The translations under genes and the position numbers were made by a program. DNA of 16,353 nt. Origin: Flavobacteriales bacterium (lineage in GTDB: Bacteria > Bacteroidota > Bacteroidia > Flavobacteriales > UA16). The notes beneath the pieces were generated by a model. It was not told where the DNA came from. It did no database searches and saw only the letters and a list, made by a program, of their open reading frames with translations. The stretch covers positions 1 to 16,353 of the forward strand of contig JAURKF010000143.1 in NCBI GenBank assembly GCA_030831885.1, given 5' to 3'. This document shows, piece by piece, positions 4,342-11,478 of the stretch (within the stretch, counting starts at the first letter, position 1; each line of letters opens with the position of its first letter).

Positions 4342-4827
4342 CTACCGCCCCCACATTTCTGAGTGCCAACTATCTTTAAACGCGACAATCAGTTTTTCAC
4401 GTAAACCCCCTAAGGTACGCATAGTAGTATCACATACAAGTGTCTGGTCGTTAACAATCAATGCCTTACGCATTGCCCAAAATTTATTCAAGGGGGCTTC
4501 TTCCCAGCCTGATTCATTCTGATAAACTATCACCGTGCGTTGAAAAAAGTCGATTTTCATACGCGTTGACAATTCCTGTAAAAACCGAACAGACTTATCA
4601 ATTCCGCATCCACTTGCCGGGACTGTTTGCTCATCAACGGCAAAAACAATAAATCGCTGATGCAGAATATCAAACGCTGCATTCATCGTTGAGCCGTGAG
4701 AGGTCCAATCCTCTAAAAAAACTTGTGCAGCGCTATGTATTTCGTGAACCTCCTCCTCAGTAAGATTGCGCTCTGATTGGTAAATCCAGACTCGTGAATG
4801 ATCGGCAAGTTGACTCAATTCCTTCAT
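4342..4827 (-). CDS. Small 'ABC transporter ATPase' family protein, fourth gene of exosortase operon
   Basis: A 161-residue soluble protein. It resembles a widespread Bacteroidota family often labelled 'ABC transporter ATPase', but no Walker A, Walker B or ABC signature is present, so that label is almost certainly wrong. Recognisable family features are SRVWIYQSERNLTEEE at 11-26, WTSHG at 41-45, ASGCGIDKSVRFLQEL at 71-86, DFFQRT at 93-98 and KDSWH near 151. The function of the family is unknown. The frame runs on to 4875, but the ATG at 4827 forms an ATGA overlap with the stop of the upstream membrane-protein gene and matches the family N-terminus, so it is chosen. It is the last gene of the four-gene unit. 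The overlap suggests coupled translation, but its membership may be chance operon growth, since the family also occurs elsewhere. The conserved GCGID segment is the best candidate functional site. Confidence 0.75.
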   Translation of the reverse strand: MKELSQLADHSRVWIYQSERNLTEEEVHEIHSAAQVFLEDWTSHGSTMNAAFDILHQRFIVFAVDEQTVPASGCGIDKSVRFLQELSTRMKIDFFQRTVIVYQNESGWEEAPLNKFWAMRKALIVNDQTLVCDTTMRTLGGLREKLIVAFKDSWHSEMWGR

Positions 4828-5369
4828 TCCTGATGTTTTTTTAACGTTGAACTCCAAAGAACTACCGCGGGCCAAATTATCATCGCGGGTATAATGGATT
4901 GCAAGGCACCAATTATTTTTCGACTAAAGGCATAGGCCTCCTCAACTGAATGCACAGCGATTCCAATCGCATAAATACCAAATGAGAACAAAACCAATAC
5001 TAGATAGGTTAATATCAAAAAGCGAGTAAGAGAAAATGTTGACTGAACAACTTTAAGAATGGTCAAATTGAGAAATGCAAATACCATCAAGGAACATCCG
5101 GTAATAATCCATTTCAAGACAGTAAGCTCACGAATGGTGAACCTGAAAAGCCAATCAGCAGTTGAATGATTATGGTAATAATCGAATGGTGCGTGAATTC
5201 TCTGCTGATCGATGGCCTGAGCCCTTTCCGTGGCAGTCATAGTATCAAAACCGGCGATAACAGATCCGTACTCTATCAGATAATTCACGCTTATTTTAAC
5301 CTTCTCCTGATAAAAGCCCACAGAGAGAGCAAGAATCAACAAAGCTGATAGTTTGAATGTCCTTTTCAT
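4824..5369 (-). CDS. Exosortase-associated integral membrane protein
   Basis: A 181-residue protein with about four predicted membrane helices (residues about 6-20, 83-105, 113-138 and 150-173). A soluble loop of about 60 residues lies between helices 1 and 2. The loop contains PFDYYHNHSTADWLFRF (61-77), whose paired His residues and aromatic cluster stand out as a likely conserved site. The end is basic (LKKHQE). It lies directly between the exosortase gene and the small family protein, with an ATGA overlap at each end, so it is probably co-translated with both. Bacteroidota exosortases are often accompanied by a dedicated small membrane protein (XrtF- or XrtX-associated proteins). The position and size fit, and the sequence looks more like the XrtX-associated kind than the XrtF-associated one, but that assignment is from memory and tentative. 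Role in the sorting complex is inferred. Confidence 0.7.
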   Translation of the reverse strand: MKRTFKLSALLILALSVGFYQEKVKISVNYLIEYGSVIAGFDTMTATERAQAIDQQRIHAPFDYYHNHSTADWLFRFTIRELTVLKWIITGCSLMVFAFLNLTILKVVQSTFSLTRFLILTYLVLVLFSFGIYAIGIAVHSVEEAYAFSRKIIGALQSIIPAMIIWPAVVLWSSTLKKHQE

Positions 5370-5914
5370 TTTTCCTCATTGCTTTTGGCATAGGGCGAAA
5401 ACTTCTGAACCCAAATTACCCACAATGCAAATACGTAGGCGTAAACAAGAATTGTGAACGTATAATCATGATTGAATGCGAGCCAATTCTCATTTATACT
5501 CATAATGATGGCCAATGCCGCTACCCGAAGTACATTCAAATAAAAAACAGTAAAGGCTCCTAGTGGTACAAACCAAAGTTTATGTTTCAGCGGCCCAGGG
5601 AATGCAACTACAAAAAATATGAATAGCGCGTATAGGACTACCCCATCGCAGGGAGCTCCAACAGTGACGCCTTTGAAACCTTGAATCCCGAGATGCTGCC
5701 TGAACCCTATATCAATCGATGAATAGTCAGTGGTTATATAACCAAACCACTGAAGCGTTTTCTCCGCCCACACAACAATTTGATTTACCGCATACTGATC
5801 AAAATCGGTATGCTTATGTAGGTAAAACTCATACAGAAAATACCAAATCAGGTAAAGTGAAGTTGATAACAGCAGAAAACGGAGGAAAGGATTATTCCGG
5901 AGTCTTTCTCGCAT
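5366..5914 (-). CDS. Exosortase-family transpeptidase/protease (XrtX- or XrtF-like)
   Basis: A 182-residue polytopic membrane protein of the exosortase/archaeosortase family, which cleaves a C-terminal sorting signal at the membrane and is thought to transfer the cargo to an acceptor. Helices lie near residues 10-31, 88-106, 112-139 and 151-170. The family's catalytic triad is visible: Cys89 in GAPCDG, Arg130 in LNVLRVAALAII, and His149 in AFNHDYTF. The protein is short, like other Bacteroidota members and unlike the roughly 300-residue EpsH types of Proteobacteria. The start ATG shares one base with the stop of the upstream substrate gene (TAATG), and the stop overlaps the next start (ATGA). 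The PID-type substrate upstream favours the XrtX class; XrtF is the alternative. Family membership is firm, the subtype less so. Confidence 0.88.
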   Translation of the reverse strand: MRERLRNNPFLRFLLLSTSLYLIWYFLYEFYLHKHTDFDQYAVNQIVVWAEKTLQWFGYITTDYSSIDIGFRQHLGIQGFKGVTVGAPCDGVVLYALFIFFVVAFPGPLKHKLWFVPLGAFTVFYLNVLRVAALAIIMSINENWLAFNHDYTFTILVYAYVFALWVIWVQKFSPYAKSNEEK

Positions 5915-6138
5915 TATGATTTCTTACGTGCCAAATCGTAAGTCTTTTTACCACCATATGCCAGTCCGGCCGCGATAAGAAAACTCACCCCTCCATCTAT
6001 TGGACATGGAGGTCCACCAAAAGGAGTACCGCAAGGTGCAGGTGGCGGTGGTGGCGGTGGTTGAGCAACAATCTTCGAATTGAAGCCGATGAACACCAAC
6101 ACTGAAACAAATACCGCTCTAACGATGATTTTTTGCAT
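5914..6138 (-). CDS. Tiny PID-CTERM-like exosortase substrate
   Basis: A 74-residue protein with the layout of a sorting substrate. Residues 1-26 form a signal peptide (MQKIIVRAVFVSVLVFIGFN..., cleavage after IVAQ). Then come seven consecutive Pro (27-33), a short Gly/Pro segment with Cys36 and Cys45, the motif PIDGG (46-50), a hydrophobic stretch VSFLIAAGLAYGG (51-63), and a basic tail KKTYDLARKKS. Motif, membrane helix and basic tail are the tripartite pattern of exosortase targets, and PIDGG matches what is called PID-CTERM in Bacteroidota. After removal of both ends only about 20 residues would remain. It is the first gene of the operon, and its stop overlaps the exosortase start by one base. 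The proposed role as the cognate substrate is inferred from this linkage. A structural or regulatory subunit of the sorting complex is the alternative. Confidence 0.78.
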   Translation of the reverse strand: MQKIIVRAVFVSVLVFIGFNSKIVAQPPPPPPPAPCGTPFGGPPCPIDGGVSFLIAAGLAYGGKKTYDLARKKS

Positions 6139-6272: not shown

Positions 6273-8708
6273 ATGTCTAACACTAACCCAGCTCCTCAAA
6301 AAACCAATTTTTTGGACGCTGATGACTTAAGGCCCATAATTAAGTTCATCAACAAAAATTGGTATTTGATGATTCTCTTCTCGGGCATAGGTTGGCTATT
6401 CGCTATGTTCTATACTCATCGGCTACCGAACGTATATGCTGCGAAAACAGAGATTCTTCTAAAATCATCGGAAACGTACGACTATCAAACTCAGATTTAC
6501 AAGGACATCGGTTATTATTCCTTGATGCAAGACATCACCAATCAAAAACGAATTTTGAGTTCGTACGACATGATTGGTAAAGTGATGGAACGAGTTGACT
6601 TTACTCACAACTATTTCTTGGTTGGCCGCGTGAAAACGGAACAGGTCGACCGATTCGCTTACTTCGATGTGTTTTGCGATTGGCGCATGTTGGATAAGAG
6701 GCTCTATGGCAAGCCCTTCACTCTGAAAATTGTGGATTTATCGAAATACACCATCAGCTATGTGCTTGATGGAAATAAACTAACACATGAATTTGAATTT
6801 GGGAAGGAAAATGTCGATGTCAATTTTACCATCAAGGTTGACTTGCTTCCGCGCGTAGATGAGGTTAACTTAAAGAGCATTCAGGAACAGAATTTTCAGT
6901 TCACTGTGCAGCACCCGGAAGTCCTCATTGATCAGCTTCGCGGTGGATTGAAAATTGAGAATCAGGATATGACAAGCATCCTGACGCTCACCATGAGAGA
7001 TATGCTTGAGAGCAGGGCAAAAACTTTTCTGGACACACTTGCCCGAGTTTATCTCGAATTCACCCTGCAAAATCAACTTATCGTAAATGAGAAAACTGAG
7101 GATTATATAGACAAGCAACTTGATGGTATCATGATCATCATGGACTCCCTAGAAGGTTTGATTGATAATTTCAAAGCGAACAACAACATTCTTGATCTTG
7201 ACATGGAACAAGAAAACGCATTCTCTATTCTGGAACAAACAGAAAAGGACGAGCGAAATCTTGTACTGCGAGAAAACGCTCTTGCAGCTCTTGAAGAGTT
7301 CCTGGTCAAGGAAAGTGATATGTCTGTTATACCTCCTCTAAACTTACTGCAGGAAGAAGATCAGTCGCTAAGTGCCCTTGTGAAAGACTTGTTCAACTTA
7401 CGTCAACGCAGAACGGAACTCCTTGTAGACATGAAGCCCAGCGACCGAAGGGTCCAAAAGATTGATTCCGTTGTAAAAACCATCCGCAGCAGCATTTTCC
7501 GATACACCACGGATAATAAAAAACAGATTCAAAAACGCATACAGGATGTCAGAGCTCAACACTCGGCAGCTGAAGATGAACTTAGAAGTATTCCACGCTC
7601 GCAGCGCGACCTTCTCAGCATTGAGCGTAAACTGACAGTGAACGAAGGTCAGTACACGTTCTTGTTGCAGAAAAAAGCAAATACTGTCATTGCTCGTGCT
7701 GGTATTATTCCGCAAACAAGCATAATAGAGTCGGCCAGAAGCCTGGGTGTCGTGGGGCCGGAAAAGTCCGGCACGATATGGACTTTTGTAGGCGTTGGAT
7801 TTTTTATTGCACTCATTATTGGGCTTGTGCGTGCAATCTTCTTTGAACGTATAGAGAACACACGTGAATTAAAGGCATACACTCGACTACCGCTTCTGGG
7901 TGGAATTCCGAACTATCAGGACGTCGATTTGGATCCGATTGTAATTGCGAGTAACCCGCGTTCGAATGTGAGTGAAGCTTTTCGATCTATTCGAACCAAC
8001 TTACAATACATTCTTCACGATGAAGGGCCTAAAGTTATCCTTGTGACTTCGCTTCACCCCGGAGAAGGAAAAACATTTGTTTCTGTAAACTTATCTGCCG
8101 TATTAGCGAAAGCATCTAAGCGCGTTATCGTGTTGGACTTTGACATGCACAAGCCGAAAATTCACAAGTCCATGCGAATGGAAAATGTGAGCGGTATCTC
8201 ATCTTATCTCATTGGGAAAACGGATTTCAGGCAAAGTATAACCCCAACAGCGGTGGAGAACATGGATGCCATAACGGCGGGTCCAGTGCCACCCAACGCT
8301 TCGGAATTGGTCCTCAATCAGCGCGTTGATCTACTCCTCGAAGGAATTAAAGAAATGTACGATTATGTGATTATCGATACACCTCCATTGTTACTTATCA
8401 GTGACTCACTGGTGCTTCTAAGCAAAGTAGACCTTGGAATATTCGTATTGAACACAGAAAAAGCGACTAAAGCAGGATTGCGCCATCTTGAGGAGGTGCT
8501 CTCAATGAATAATCTAAAAAAGAATTCGATTGTACTGAACAATATCAAGCAAAAACGCTGGAAATATTACTACGGCAAATACGCTTACCGATATGGTTAT
8601 GGTTACGGCTACGGATATGGCTATGGCAACACATACGGCGGTTATATGTACGGAAACGCCTATTACTCCGAAGATGATTCCAGCAAATCAAAAAAGAAGA
8701 AGAAATAG
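6273..8708 (+). CDS. wzc: Wzc-like polysaccharide co-polymerase / bacterial tyrosine autokinase
   Basis: An 811-residue inner-membrane protein that controls chain length and export of surface polysaccharide. An N-terminal Wzz-type helix (about 31-50) leads into a long periplasmic region rich in coiled coil (about 290-490, ending RDLLSIERKLTVNEGQYTFL, the GNVR-type segment). A second helix lies at about 502-522. The cytoplasmic BY-kinase domain follows, with Walker A SLHPGEGKT (593-601, Lys600), Walker A' VIVLDFDMHKPK (Asp622, Asp624) and Walker B YVIIDTPP (Asp702). The tail holds 16 tyrosines between residues 765 and 798, the expected autophosphorylation cluster, and ends in polylysine. The fused kinase is the usual Bacteroidota arrangement. 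A GT2 gene follows after 15 bases, and the exosortase operon is divergent, 134 bases away. No outer-membrane Wza-like gene is present in the window. Confidence 0.93.
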   Translation: MSNTNPAPQKTNFLDADDLRPIIKFINKNWYLMILFSGIGWLFAMFYTHRLPNVYAAKTEILLKSSETYDYQTQIYKDIGYYSLMQDITNQKRILSSYDMIGKVMERVDFTHNYFLVGRVKTEQVDRFAYFDVFCDWRMLDKRLYGKPFTLKIVDLSKYTISYVLDGNKLTHEFEFGKENVDVNFTIKVDLLPRVDEVNLKSIQEQNFQFTVQHPEVLIDQLRGGLKIENQDMTSILTLTMRDMLESRAKTFLDTLARVYLEFTLQNQLIVNEKTEDYIDKQLDGIMIIMDSLEGLIDNFKANNNILDLDMEQENAFSILEQTEKDERNLVLRENALAALEEFLVKESDMSVIPPLNLLQEEDQSLSALVKDLFNLRQRRTELLVDMKPSDRRVQKIDSVVKTIRSSIFRYTTDNKKQIQKRIQDVRAQHSAAEDELRSIPRSQRDLLSIERKLTVNEGQYTFLLQKKANTVIARAGIIPQTSIIESARSLGVVGPEKSGTIWTFVGVGFFIALIIGLVRAIFFERIENTRELKAYTRLPLLGGIPNYQDVDLDPIVIASNPRSNVSEAFRSIRTNLQYILHDEGPKVILVTSLHPGEGKTFVSVNLSAVLAKASKRVIVLDFDMHKPKIHKSMRMENVSGISSYLIGKTDFRQSITPTAVENMDAITAGPVPPNASELVLNQRVDLLLEGIKEMYDYVIIDTPPLLLISDSLVLLSKVDLGIFVLNTEKATKAGLRHLEEVLSMNNLKKNSIVLNNIKQKRWKYYYGKYAYRYGYGYGYGYGYGNTYGGYMYGNAYYSEDDSSKSKKKKK
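8592..8627 (+). repeat. Six Tyr-Gly dipeptides in the kinase tail
   Basis: Six consecutive Tyr-Gly codon pairs lie at the centre of the tyrosine cluster of the Wzc-like kinase. The codons alternate (TAT/TAC for Tyr; GGT, GGC, GGA for Gly), so the DNA is not a perfect tandem repeat. The pattern is therefore more likely kept by selection on the protein than produced by recent slippage. More tyrosines flank it on both sides (8565-8666). Confidence 0.85.
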
Positions 8709-9384: not shown

Positions 9385-11478
9385 TTACTCGTAATTCAAT
9401 ACGGTGACATAGCCATATCGATCGACAGTTCTTCCCCGACCATCTTTTACTGAAATGTAAAAGTTGTAAACCCCCTCTTGAACATAGGTTCCATTGAGAG
9501 TTCCATCCCAGCCCTCATCAATGTTGTGTGATTCGAAAACAAGGTCGCCCCAGCGACTGAATATGTTGAGATAGTATTCCTGAACAAGGGCAAAAGAAAC
9601 CATTGGTTTGAATACGTCATTGTAGCCGCCAATTACAATTGCATTAGGAATCCATACAATTGCATCCATAGATAGATTCACTTCATTTGAGATTGATATG
9701 GCAGCCTCATTGGCTTCCGTTGTTTTTTCAACTGCATGAATCCGATAATAAAAATCTCCATCCGTTTCTACCAAGTCAGAGACATCGTCCTCATAAAACA
9801 AACTGCTTGAAGCATTTACTTCTTCAAGCAGCTCATATTCACTGTCCTTTTGTCGTCGGTAAATCTCGTATCGCTCAATACCATTGCTCCACTGGACATA
9901 TGGAGTCCAGGCTAGTGCATTGACCAACCGCTCCTGACTAGGTTGTCCATCAAGTAAAATGGTTGAAGCTATGTTGGTTGTATCAACAACGAGTCCGCAG
10001 GCATTGTAAACCAAAACTCTATACGTATATGAGAAAACATCGGTAACACGACCATCGTCCAAAAAGGAAATTTCAGCAGTTGCATTCTCATCTCGAACCA
10101 GCACCTGCTCCCAAGTTTGAGTAGCACTTTCCAATCGCTGAAGCTCATACCTGTATGTCTGAACAGTAGGTTCAAGTTTTACTAAAACTTCAACAGTATC
10201 CGAATTCAAAACAGTTGCATAAGCAATTTTTAGATTCTGCGGCACAGAAAAATCATCGACATAGGTATCATCGAAATTAGAAAACGCTCTAAAACCGGTT
10301 ATTGTATCGACAGCTTCAATTCTAAAAATATTATACCCCCCAAATTGAAAATTATCATAAGAATAACTCAAGGTTGTAATTGTATCCAAGGGTATCATTT
10401 GAATATCTGCGTAGGCATTGTTCAAGCCATATCCACCATGCACAACATAAAAGCTGGGCGAATTTTGCCAACTGCTATAGGGCGTCCAATTCATTTCGAT
10501 ACTTTCATCACAAACCGCAAAATTCTGTACCTGCAAAAAATGAGACATATAACAAACGGTAGTATCATAATTTCCACACGCATCATATGCGGCAATGGAA
10601 TATGATACCGGACCATTTTCTGTCTCTGCAAAGAAGTCTGTGAATTGCCAGGGTTCTTCATTTACCTGAAAAATCGGTGTCGTGGTATTTTCTTCACAGC
10701 GATAAACCATATAACCCAACACATCGGGCGAGGAACTCTGCTCCCATTCCACAACTGCATATCCCTCAGCATCAATATCGACACTTGAAACAATACCCGA
10801 CGATGGGAATACATTGTCGCTAAAATAATCCCCATCGATATTACTCACATAGGCGCATCCGTTCGAGGTAACGAGGCGAATCCGAAAGTTCATGGTGTCC
10901 TCAGTACAGTTAAAAACATTCTTCAGATAATAGTTTGTGCCGAAGTCAACGACCGACATTAGTTGCCAAACATTACCGGGGTAATCGGTCCACAATTCAT
11001 AGTGCCAATTAACCGTATTCATGCCATCCGGCAGCCAAGGGGTGTTCCACTCTAAATAAGCAGCGCTATCGCAGTTGTTGCATAGGTTTTCTGCTGCTTC
11101 CGCCTGAAGATGAATGGTTGAAAGTGTATCGGATGATACTGCGAATGTGCCGCCGGCTCCATTGGTGTACCAGGCCAAAACTGCATAGTAATAGCTATTT
11201 TGCAAAGATAAATTGGTTATATGAGTATAGCTGTTTGTTTGAAGGGGTGACAGATTATTGGCAATCGATGTAAATTCCAATACAGGTGAAATACTGTTTA
11301 AGACTTCATAGTGACTAAAATTTCCGGGGCTAGAAGTCGGAGGCGTCCAATTAATTGTAACGTTGCCCACCTCATCTACTTCCAAGCAACCTACCGTGGG
11401 CTCCAATTGAGTGTAGCCCACATTGAATGCAAAAAGCATAAACACCGAAATAGCAATGGGGTACAGTAATTTCTTCAA
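9385..11478 (-). CDS. Secreted fibronectin-III-like protein with T9SS type B sorting domain
   Basis: A 697-residue surface or secreted protein. Residues 1-24 form a signal peptide (MKKLLYPIAISVFMLFAFNV...YTQ). The body is a string of about five Ig/fibronectin type III-like modules (roughly 25-125, 235-320, 325-415, 420-512 and 520-605), recognised by repeated elements such as LAWTPYVQWSNGIERYEIYR. The last 90 residues are a CHU_C/gliding-motility-type C-terminal domain: WIPNA (609-613), FSRWGDLVFES (650-660), GWDG (666-669) and GVYNFYISVKD (679-689). This domain directs export through the type IX secretion system. The start codon is TTG at 11478, because an in-frame stop lies just upstream and no ATG would keep the signal peptide. 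It is probably an adhesin-like protein. The gene stands alone, convergent with the GT2 gene. Confidence 0.88.
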   Translation of the reverse strand: MKKLLYPIAISVFMLFAFNVGYTQLEPTVGCLEVDEVGNVTINWTPPTSSPGNFSHYEVLNSISPVLEFTSIANNLSPLQTNSYTHITNLSLQNSYYYAVLAWYTNGAGGTFAVSSDTLSTIHLQAEAAENLCNNCDSAAYLEWNTPWLPDGMNTVNWHYELWTDYPGNVWQLMSVVDFGTNYYLKNVFNCTEDTMNFRIRLVTSNGCAYVSNIDGDYFSDNVFPSSGIVSSVDIDAEGYAVVEWEQSSSPDVLGYMVYRCEENTTTPIFQVNEEPWQFTDFFAETENGPVSYSIAAYDACGNYDTTVCYMSHFLQVQNFAVCDESIEMNWTPYSSWQNSPSFYVVHGGYGLNNAYADIQMIPLDTITTLSYSYDNFQFGGYNIFRIEAVDTITGFRAFSNFDDTYVDDFSVPQNLKIAYATVLNSDTVEVLVKLEPTVQTYRYELQRLESATQTWEQVLVRDENATAEISFLDDGRVTDVFSYTYRVLVYNACGLVVDTTNIASTILLDGQPSQERLVNALAWTPYVQWSNGIERYEIYRRQKDSEYELLEEVNASSSLFYEDDVSDLVETDGDFYYRIHAVEKTTEANEAAISISNEVNLSMDAIVWIPNAIVIGGYNDVFKPMVSFALVQEYYLNIFSRWGDLVFESHNIDEGWDGTLNGTYVQEGVYNFYISVKDGRGRTVDRYGYVTVLNYE

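Follow-up and report, generated by a model that had tools for sequence, protein, structure and literature searches.

The 16,353-nucleotide stretch of DNA analysed here (the window), from a Flavobacteriales bacterium (contig JAURKF010000143.1), carries on its minus strand at 4342-6138 a run of four genes that we read as an XrtX/PID-CTERM sorting unit, in which an exosortase would handle a dedicated micro-substrate in the service of surface display; we assign this account as a whole a probability of roughly 60%. In gene order, the run encodes a PID-CTERM microprotein as the putative substrate (5914-6138; 74 amino acids (aa)), exosortase X (XrtX; 5366-5914; 182 aa), a membrane protein of the XrtX-associated type (4824-5369; 181 aa) and P4 (4342-4827; 161 aa from its ATG), a soluble core protein of Bacteroidia that carries the database name 'ABC transporter ATPase'. 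Judged by family models, three of the four genes are a set already named by NCBI: PID-CTERM, XrtX and the XrtX-associated membrane protein. What the sequences support directly is family membership, gene order, the micro size of the substrate, co-occurrence and the enrichment of certain neighbours. The tiny substrate is the unexpected part of the system, and the micro-substrate and its pairing with large secreted proteins raise the unit above the routine.

The original prediction had found no described system to match this unit, a statement that did not survive comparison with NCBIfam, in which the entries PID_CTERM, exosort_XrtX and assoc_w_XrtX matched the three proteins. Of the models proposed for this check, those for the substrate (NF046080; 40.2 bits, cut-off 26) and for XrtX (NF046081; 174.9 bits, cut-off 170) were passed, whereas the exosortase fell below the XrtF model (TIGR04128; 83.2 bits, cut-off 90) and the membrane protein below the XrtX-associated model (NF046082; 41.9 bits, cut-off 75). 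Because that last cut-off was missed, we label the membrane protein 'XrtX-associated-type' by position and similarity only; within its family, 40 of 42 aligned sequences give a match to NF046082 (E ≤ 1e-3). Its AlphaFold2 model has five long helices (predicted local distance difference test score (pLDDT) 94.2) and found no match among PDB folds at E ≤ 1e-3. In the exosortase, the predicted triad of Cys89, Arg130 and His149 was confirmed, all three residues being invariant across a 40-sequence alignment, and the motifs CDG and FNHDYTF are kept in all 120 listed homologues. We take these conserved Cys, Arg and His to be the catalytic residues of exosortases. A comparison with phages returned no match to the exosortase.

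We examined how well the unit is conserved in a sample of loci found by scanning with the exosortase alignment, one genome per species, from which the best 80 of 128 confirmed loci were kept (81 with the window). A PID-like open reading frame (ORF) lies directly upstream of the exosortase in 73/81 loci, by a wider rule that requires a Cys before the motif, and three of the eight loci lacking one lie at contig ends. The membrane-protein family is present in 81/81 loci, and P4 follows the membrane-protein gene on the same strand in 47/81 (46/80 without the window). The proposal of a single functional unit therefore stands for substrate, exosortase and membrane partner, which are linked, and is not supported for P4. 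In samples of 150 genomes of the order and 198 of the class, drawn from larger groups and of unstated completeness, an XrtX-like exosortase is present in 77 of the 150 and a PID-CTERM match (E ≤ 1e-4) in 59, with a single match in 57 of the 59. All but one of these PID-positive genomes (58/59) also encode an XrtX-like exosortase, which lies directly downstream of the PID gene in 52. Across the class, 88/198 genomes have a PID-CTERM match (118 matches in total; a single match in 68/88). One exosortase thus goes, as a rule, with one dedicated micro-substrate.

The match to NF046080 in the window protein spans residues 46-67 of 74. The protein begins with a signal peptide of about 25 residues, followed by an exported Pro/Gly-rich segment of about 20 residues that contains two Cys and ends in Cys, and then come PIDGG, a hydrophobic helix and a basic tail. 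Signal peptide and helix were judged by eye and the cleavage sites are predicted from sequence; an automatic signal-peptide rule gave a rough median of 19 residues, with some sites clearly wrong. Small size is general, with 114/118 PID-CTERM frames of the class sample being at most 126 aa long (exceptions of 146, 153, 194 and 995 aa), and a minority of XrtX-adjacent PID proteins reach about 100-130 aa and are rich in Cys. Locus L221 holds the sole very long frame (995 aa), in a genome that has three other, tiny PID proteins. A Cys stands 1-4 residues ahead of the PID motif in 66/66 scored XrtX-adjacent proteins. We considered this Cys as an essential part of the signal and dropped the idea, as only 20/61 PID copies away from exosortases have it and the protein at locus L198 has none. 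The latter is a Cys-less PID-like microprotein with PLDGG; the exosortase encoded downstream of it is an XrtF by score (106.6 bits).

In the working that we propose, the 74-aa precursor would be exported by Sec and would be held in the inner membrane via its C-terminal helix. XrtX, using Cys89, Arg130 and His149, would cut at or near the PID motif with the help of the associated membrane protein, after which an acceptor would receive the mature peptide, some 20 residues long. The most likely use of the product would be to display or anchor large surface proteins that the cell secretes, as well as exopolysaccharide.

The neighbours of PID genes that stand apart from exosortases bear on this last step. 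We collected 61 such orphan PID genes from 46 genomes, none directly upstream of an exosortase. Among the 51 testable same-strand upstream neighbours, 34 carry the type A tail of the type IX secretion system (T9SS; TIGR04183), compared with 7/53 random other ORFs from the same loci (Fisher p 1.6e-8, uncorrected for kinship). Three of the control ORFs matched exosortases, and therefore some of the sampled orphan PID genes do have an exosortase nearby. At XrtX loci of the class sample, the T9SS tail was found in 9/10 tested upstream neighbours, these ten having been chosen for a long upstream ORF from the 14 XrtX-type loci among L185-L214. What is new here is that tiny PID proteins in related bacteria tend to adjoin genes for large secreted surface proteins. 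Our literature search, limited and based on partial readings, found no earlier mention of this pairing; it found no paper using the term PID-CTERM, nor one on XrtX among the exosortase literature examined. The part of PMC7468200 available to us likens genes for the modification of T9SS cargo to PEP-CTERM/exosortase clusters and is silent there on PID proteins.

Other orphan neighbours are of different kinds. Acyltransferases (Acyl_transf_3) account for 4/51, probably at L223, L225, L260 and L261 as judged from the C-termini, and sugar-phosphate transferases of the exopolysaccharide type (Bac_transf) for 2/51, probably at L238 and L240. At L231 and L266 the PID gene is preceded by a gene of about 310 aa, with a sigma-factor-like ORF (by eye) ahead of it at L231; ECF sigma factors also turned up twice among the control ORFs. 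A regulator pair may therefore precede the PID genes at these two loci.

A more specific form of the proposal, which we consider less likely than not, assigns PID microproteins to the anchoring of large secreted proteins at the cell surface, as dedicated partners mainly of T9SS cargo. XrtX would process the roughly 70-aa precursor, attaching the short Pro/Gly-rich peptide that results to an acceptor, either a lipid or a sugar, and the conjugate would tether, or help to display, the large protein of the neighbouring gene. The window copy would serve the giant protein encoded downstream of P4 (285-4091, minus strand), taken in this scheme to be dockerin-tailed. We rate this form lower because T9SS pairing finds little support within the order to which the window belongs, where just one of nine sampled orphans (L233-L241) has a T9SS-like neighbour (L237, by eye).

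This weakness is one of several points that weigh against the sorting account and its extension to T9SS cargo. Two more of those nine orphans (L233 and L235) have a dockerin-like upstream neighbour, and 17 of the 51 testable neighbours overall have no T9SS tail, a further 10 of the 61 having been omitted from the test as short or ambiguous. The window itself lacks a cargo gene ahead of the PID gene; the giant protein is encoded downstream of P4, and its last 150 aa have no match in NCBIfam, to T9SS models or others. Of the 77 genomes of the order sample with an XrtX-like exosortase, 19 have no PID-CTERM match at E ≤ 1e-4. The low score of the window's membrane protein counts in the same direction, as does the fact that cleavage of PID proteins by XrtX is a prediction from sequence comparison. 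Finally, the linkage of P4 is kept in many genomes, and P4 may matter more than our account says.

The giant protein belongs to a family (F4big) found in 38 loci. Its gene starts about 250 bases after P4 and is not translationally coupled to the unit, and its product is a secreted protein with cysteine-rich repeats. A GC-type dockerin model matches 9/23 complete members, the window's own not among them, and one of the 23 has the T9SS type A tail instead (by its C-terminus, L033). This protein is a possible partner of the unit. On the other side of the PID gene, a divergently transcribed gene (6273-8708, plus strand) encodes a Wzc-type tyrosine autokinase/chain-length protein (TIGR01007; 161.1 bits, cut-off 108). 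Further along, a 697-aa secreted protein (9385-11478) has a CHU_C/T9SS type B tail, over threshold in Pfam and at 34.4 bits against a cut-off of 35 in NCBIfam.

The Wzc neighbour brings up a different fate for the peptide, namely that it is a component of exopolysaccharide, joined by XrtX to a polysaccharide or its lipid carrier with Wzc as the functional partner. Wzc-type genes are present in 54/81 exosortase loci; further out lie genes for glycosyltransferases and other sugar functions. The two orphan PID genes that come after a sugar-phosphate transferase gene would also fit. The 34 tested orphans that come after T9SS cargo rather than sugar genes speak against it, and we regard this role as doubtful.

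It is also conceivable, though we consider it unlikely, that the PID microprotein is not sorted at all and is instead a small membrane peptide that regulates XrtX, its associated membrane protein or a nearby secretion machine. The exported part, about 20 residues in the window and short in most relatives, is in keeping with such a peptide, and a regulator could adjoin T9SS cargo genes as the orphan copies do. Motif, helix and basic tail nevertheless form the layout of known sorting signals, PID proteins track the exosortase closely across genomes, and one PID copy lies within the 995-aa frame; these observations argue for the sorting account.

We next turn to P4, with which the original prediction had ended the unit as an 'ABC transporter ATPase'. 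P4 has no match in NCBIfam and none over threshold in Pfam, and 820 homologues were found at E ≤ 1e-3. The Walker A motif GxxxxGK[ST] is absent from the window protein and present in 1/120 listed homologues (P0231), and for want of it we rejected P4 as an ABC ATPase. The structure model (pLDDT 91.8) gave no Foldseek match at E ≤ 1e-3, and the one match by sequence among solved structures had an E-value of 0.036. With no Walker A motif and no clear relative of solved structure, the database name is therefore probably misleading. Kinship with lipoate ligases was likewise rejected (Pfam LplA-B_cat, E 0.051; no such fold among the structure matches shown), and a search for plasmid relatives gave no match. 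Across contexts, Phe37, Trp41, His44, Gly73, Asp77 and Arg97 are fixed (79/79 scored proteins, a tally that leaves out three proteins of 'other' context) and Cys74 is kept in 74/79; SGCGIDKS as a fixed active site proved wrong, Lys78 not being conserved.

P4 is near-universal, occurring in 143/150 genomes of the order (one genome, G057, has two partial matches) and in 172/198 of the class, as a rule in single copy. In the 77 genomes with an XrtX-like exosortase, P4 is encoded no more than about 1 kb after the exosortase, on its strand, in 32, lies elsewhere or on another contig in 43 and was not found in 2. We sampled 40 loci at which P4 lies elsewhere (L089-L128; 20 from genomes with and 20 from genomes without an XrtX-like exosortase; no P4 called in L116). 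Fe-S genes are present in 25/40, an MlaD-type gene in 26/40 and an amidase gene in 24/40, the usual order being N-acetylmuramoyl-L-alanine amidase, MlaD-type, 4Fe-4S and CCG-domain proteins, with P4 last (e.g. L097:3-4664). In a second context (7/40; L109, L111-L115 and L127), P4 lies between an ABC ATPase, an ABC-2 permease and a Ppx/GppA phosphatase on one side and a CAP-domain protein on the other; our guess is that the name 'ABC transporter ATPase' may derive from this context. At four loci from XrtX genomes (L110, L117, L118 and L126), P4 stands beside Wzc and the large protein with the trio of substrate, exosortase and membrane protein missing. P4 is thus probably not an ABC ATPase, nor clearly a component of the unit, and the proposed end of the unit was not borne out for a core gene with other usual contexts.

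The linkage of P4 to the exosortase is nonetheless old and mostly kept. In a P4 tree, a single clade (Shimodaira-Hasegawa-like approximate likelihood ratio test (SH-aLRT) 99) unites 47 of the 50 proteins that come from exosortase or Wzc loci, with the four Wzc-only proteins nested inside it and three long-branch rows outside; when P4 adjacency is mapped onto the exosortase tree, it changes 4 times, compared with 26.2 in shuffles. Both trees were built by a quick method, and the P4 tree omits L048, in which the P4 match is split over two frames. Together these patterns suggest that P4 joined the locus once, early in this lineage, and separated from it a few times. The same evidence favours a genuine role for P4 as the fourth component, in which it would act from the cytosol to bind or activate the exosortase/membrane complex or to modify the substrate before export. 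We find this improbable given that 143 of 150 genomes have P4 when just 77 have an XrtX-like exosortase, that its usual contexts are the amidase/MlaD/Fe-S and ABC/Ppx clusters, and that it stays by Wzc where the trio is gone.

The genes of the window abut without a gap, and the junctions TAATG, ATGA and ATGA were confirmed as described (in gene order, TCATAATGCG, AAATGAAA and GAATGAAG). We counted as an overlap any ATG, GTG or TTG start that overlaps the preceding stop, with PID genes scored by a strict rule (66 loci) and the window included throughout. Overlaps occur at 36/66 substrate/exosortase, 67/81 exosortase/membrane-protein and 19/47 membrane-protein/P4 junctions, and all junctions of the unit overlap together in 8/40 scored loci. 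Under uniform gene calling, 70/118 unit junctions overlap, compared with 97/327 other conserved same-strand pairs and with 0/30 from P4 to the next gene, F4big; because control pairs often overlap too, the overlap is unremarkable. Gene order is therefore conserved more than by chance and consistent overlapping only weakly so: across relatives the order was kept and the full overlap mostly lost. A four-subunit machine of fixed stoichiometry and strict translational coupling, as first proposed from the three window junctions and in line with the frequent exosortase/membrane-protein overlap, is very unlikely, since the triple overlap is the exception and overlaps are also common in the control pairs.

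Set beside known systems, the window resembles the NCBI-named XrtX/PID-CTERM system in that substrate and exosortase pass the cut-offs and the gene order is the same in most relatives, and departs from it in the score of the membrane protein and in P4, which lacks an NCBIfam model. With the exosortase/PEP-CTERM system (EpsH, XrtA) it shares nearby exopolysaccharide genes and a Wzc-type kinase, and a motif, helix and basic tail. PEP-CTERM genomes often have at least 20 targets, according to the part of PMC3237569 available to us, whereas the PID system usually has one, and a tiny one. The same portion of that paper describes adjacent rhombosortase/GlyGly-CTERM pairs, in which enzyme and single target likewise lie side by side; there the enzyme family is another, and here the target is a micro-protein. 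MYXO-CTERM signals, sorted by myxosortase, include a Cys (PMC11980579, in the part consulted), as do all scored XrtX-adjacent PID proteins, but the enzyme families are unrelated and most orphan PID proteins do not have that Cys.

Another comparison is with XrtF of Flavobacterium johnsoniae (TIGR04128; Fjoh_1448/1449), a related Bacteroidota exosortase with its own associated protein, from which the window exosortase is set apart by its score below the XrtF cut-off. No PID-like ORF was seen directly upstream of the exosortase in 13 XrtF-type loci (L185-L197). In the part of PMC10936215 available to us, deletions of xrtF and Fjoh_1449 share a summary row with porU and porZ (biofilm much reduced, zorbs abolished), and the substrates of XrtF are left to future work. 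By analogy, the xrtF phenotype fits a link between exosortases and the T9SS, though the exosortase is a different one.

Most exosortases have received their names from genome sequences, and little is known of what they produce, particularly in Bacteroidota. A substrate of roughly 70 aa, of which some 20 residues would make up the exported part, makes the XrtX/PID-CTERM unit the simplest exosortase case to work out, and the database name of P4, a very common Bacteroidia protein, is probably misleading. That PID genes pair with those for T9SS cargo suggests that two surface-sorting systems are connected. If PID microproteins do anchor the large proteins of their neighbours, this would be a sorting signal split off onto a separate tiny protein, joining exosortases to type IX secretion.

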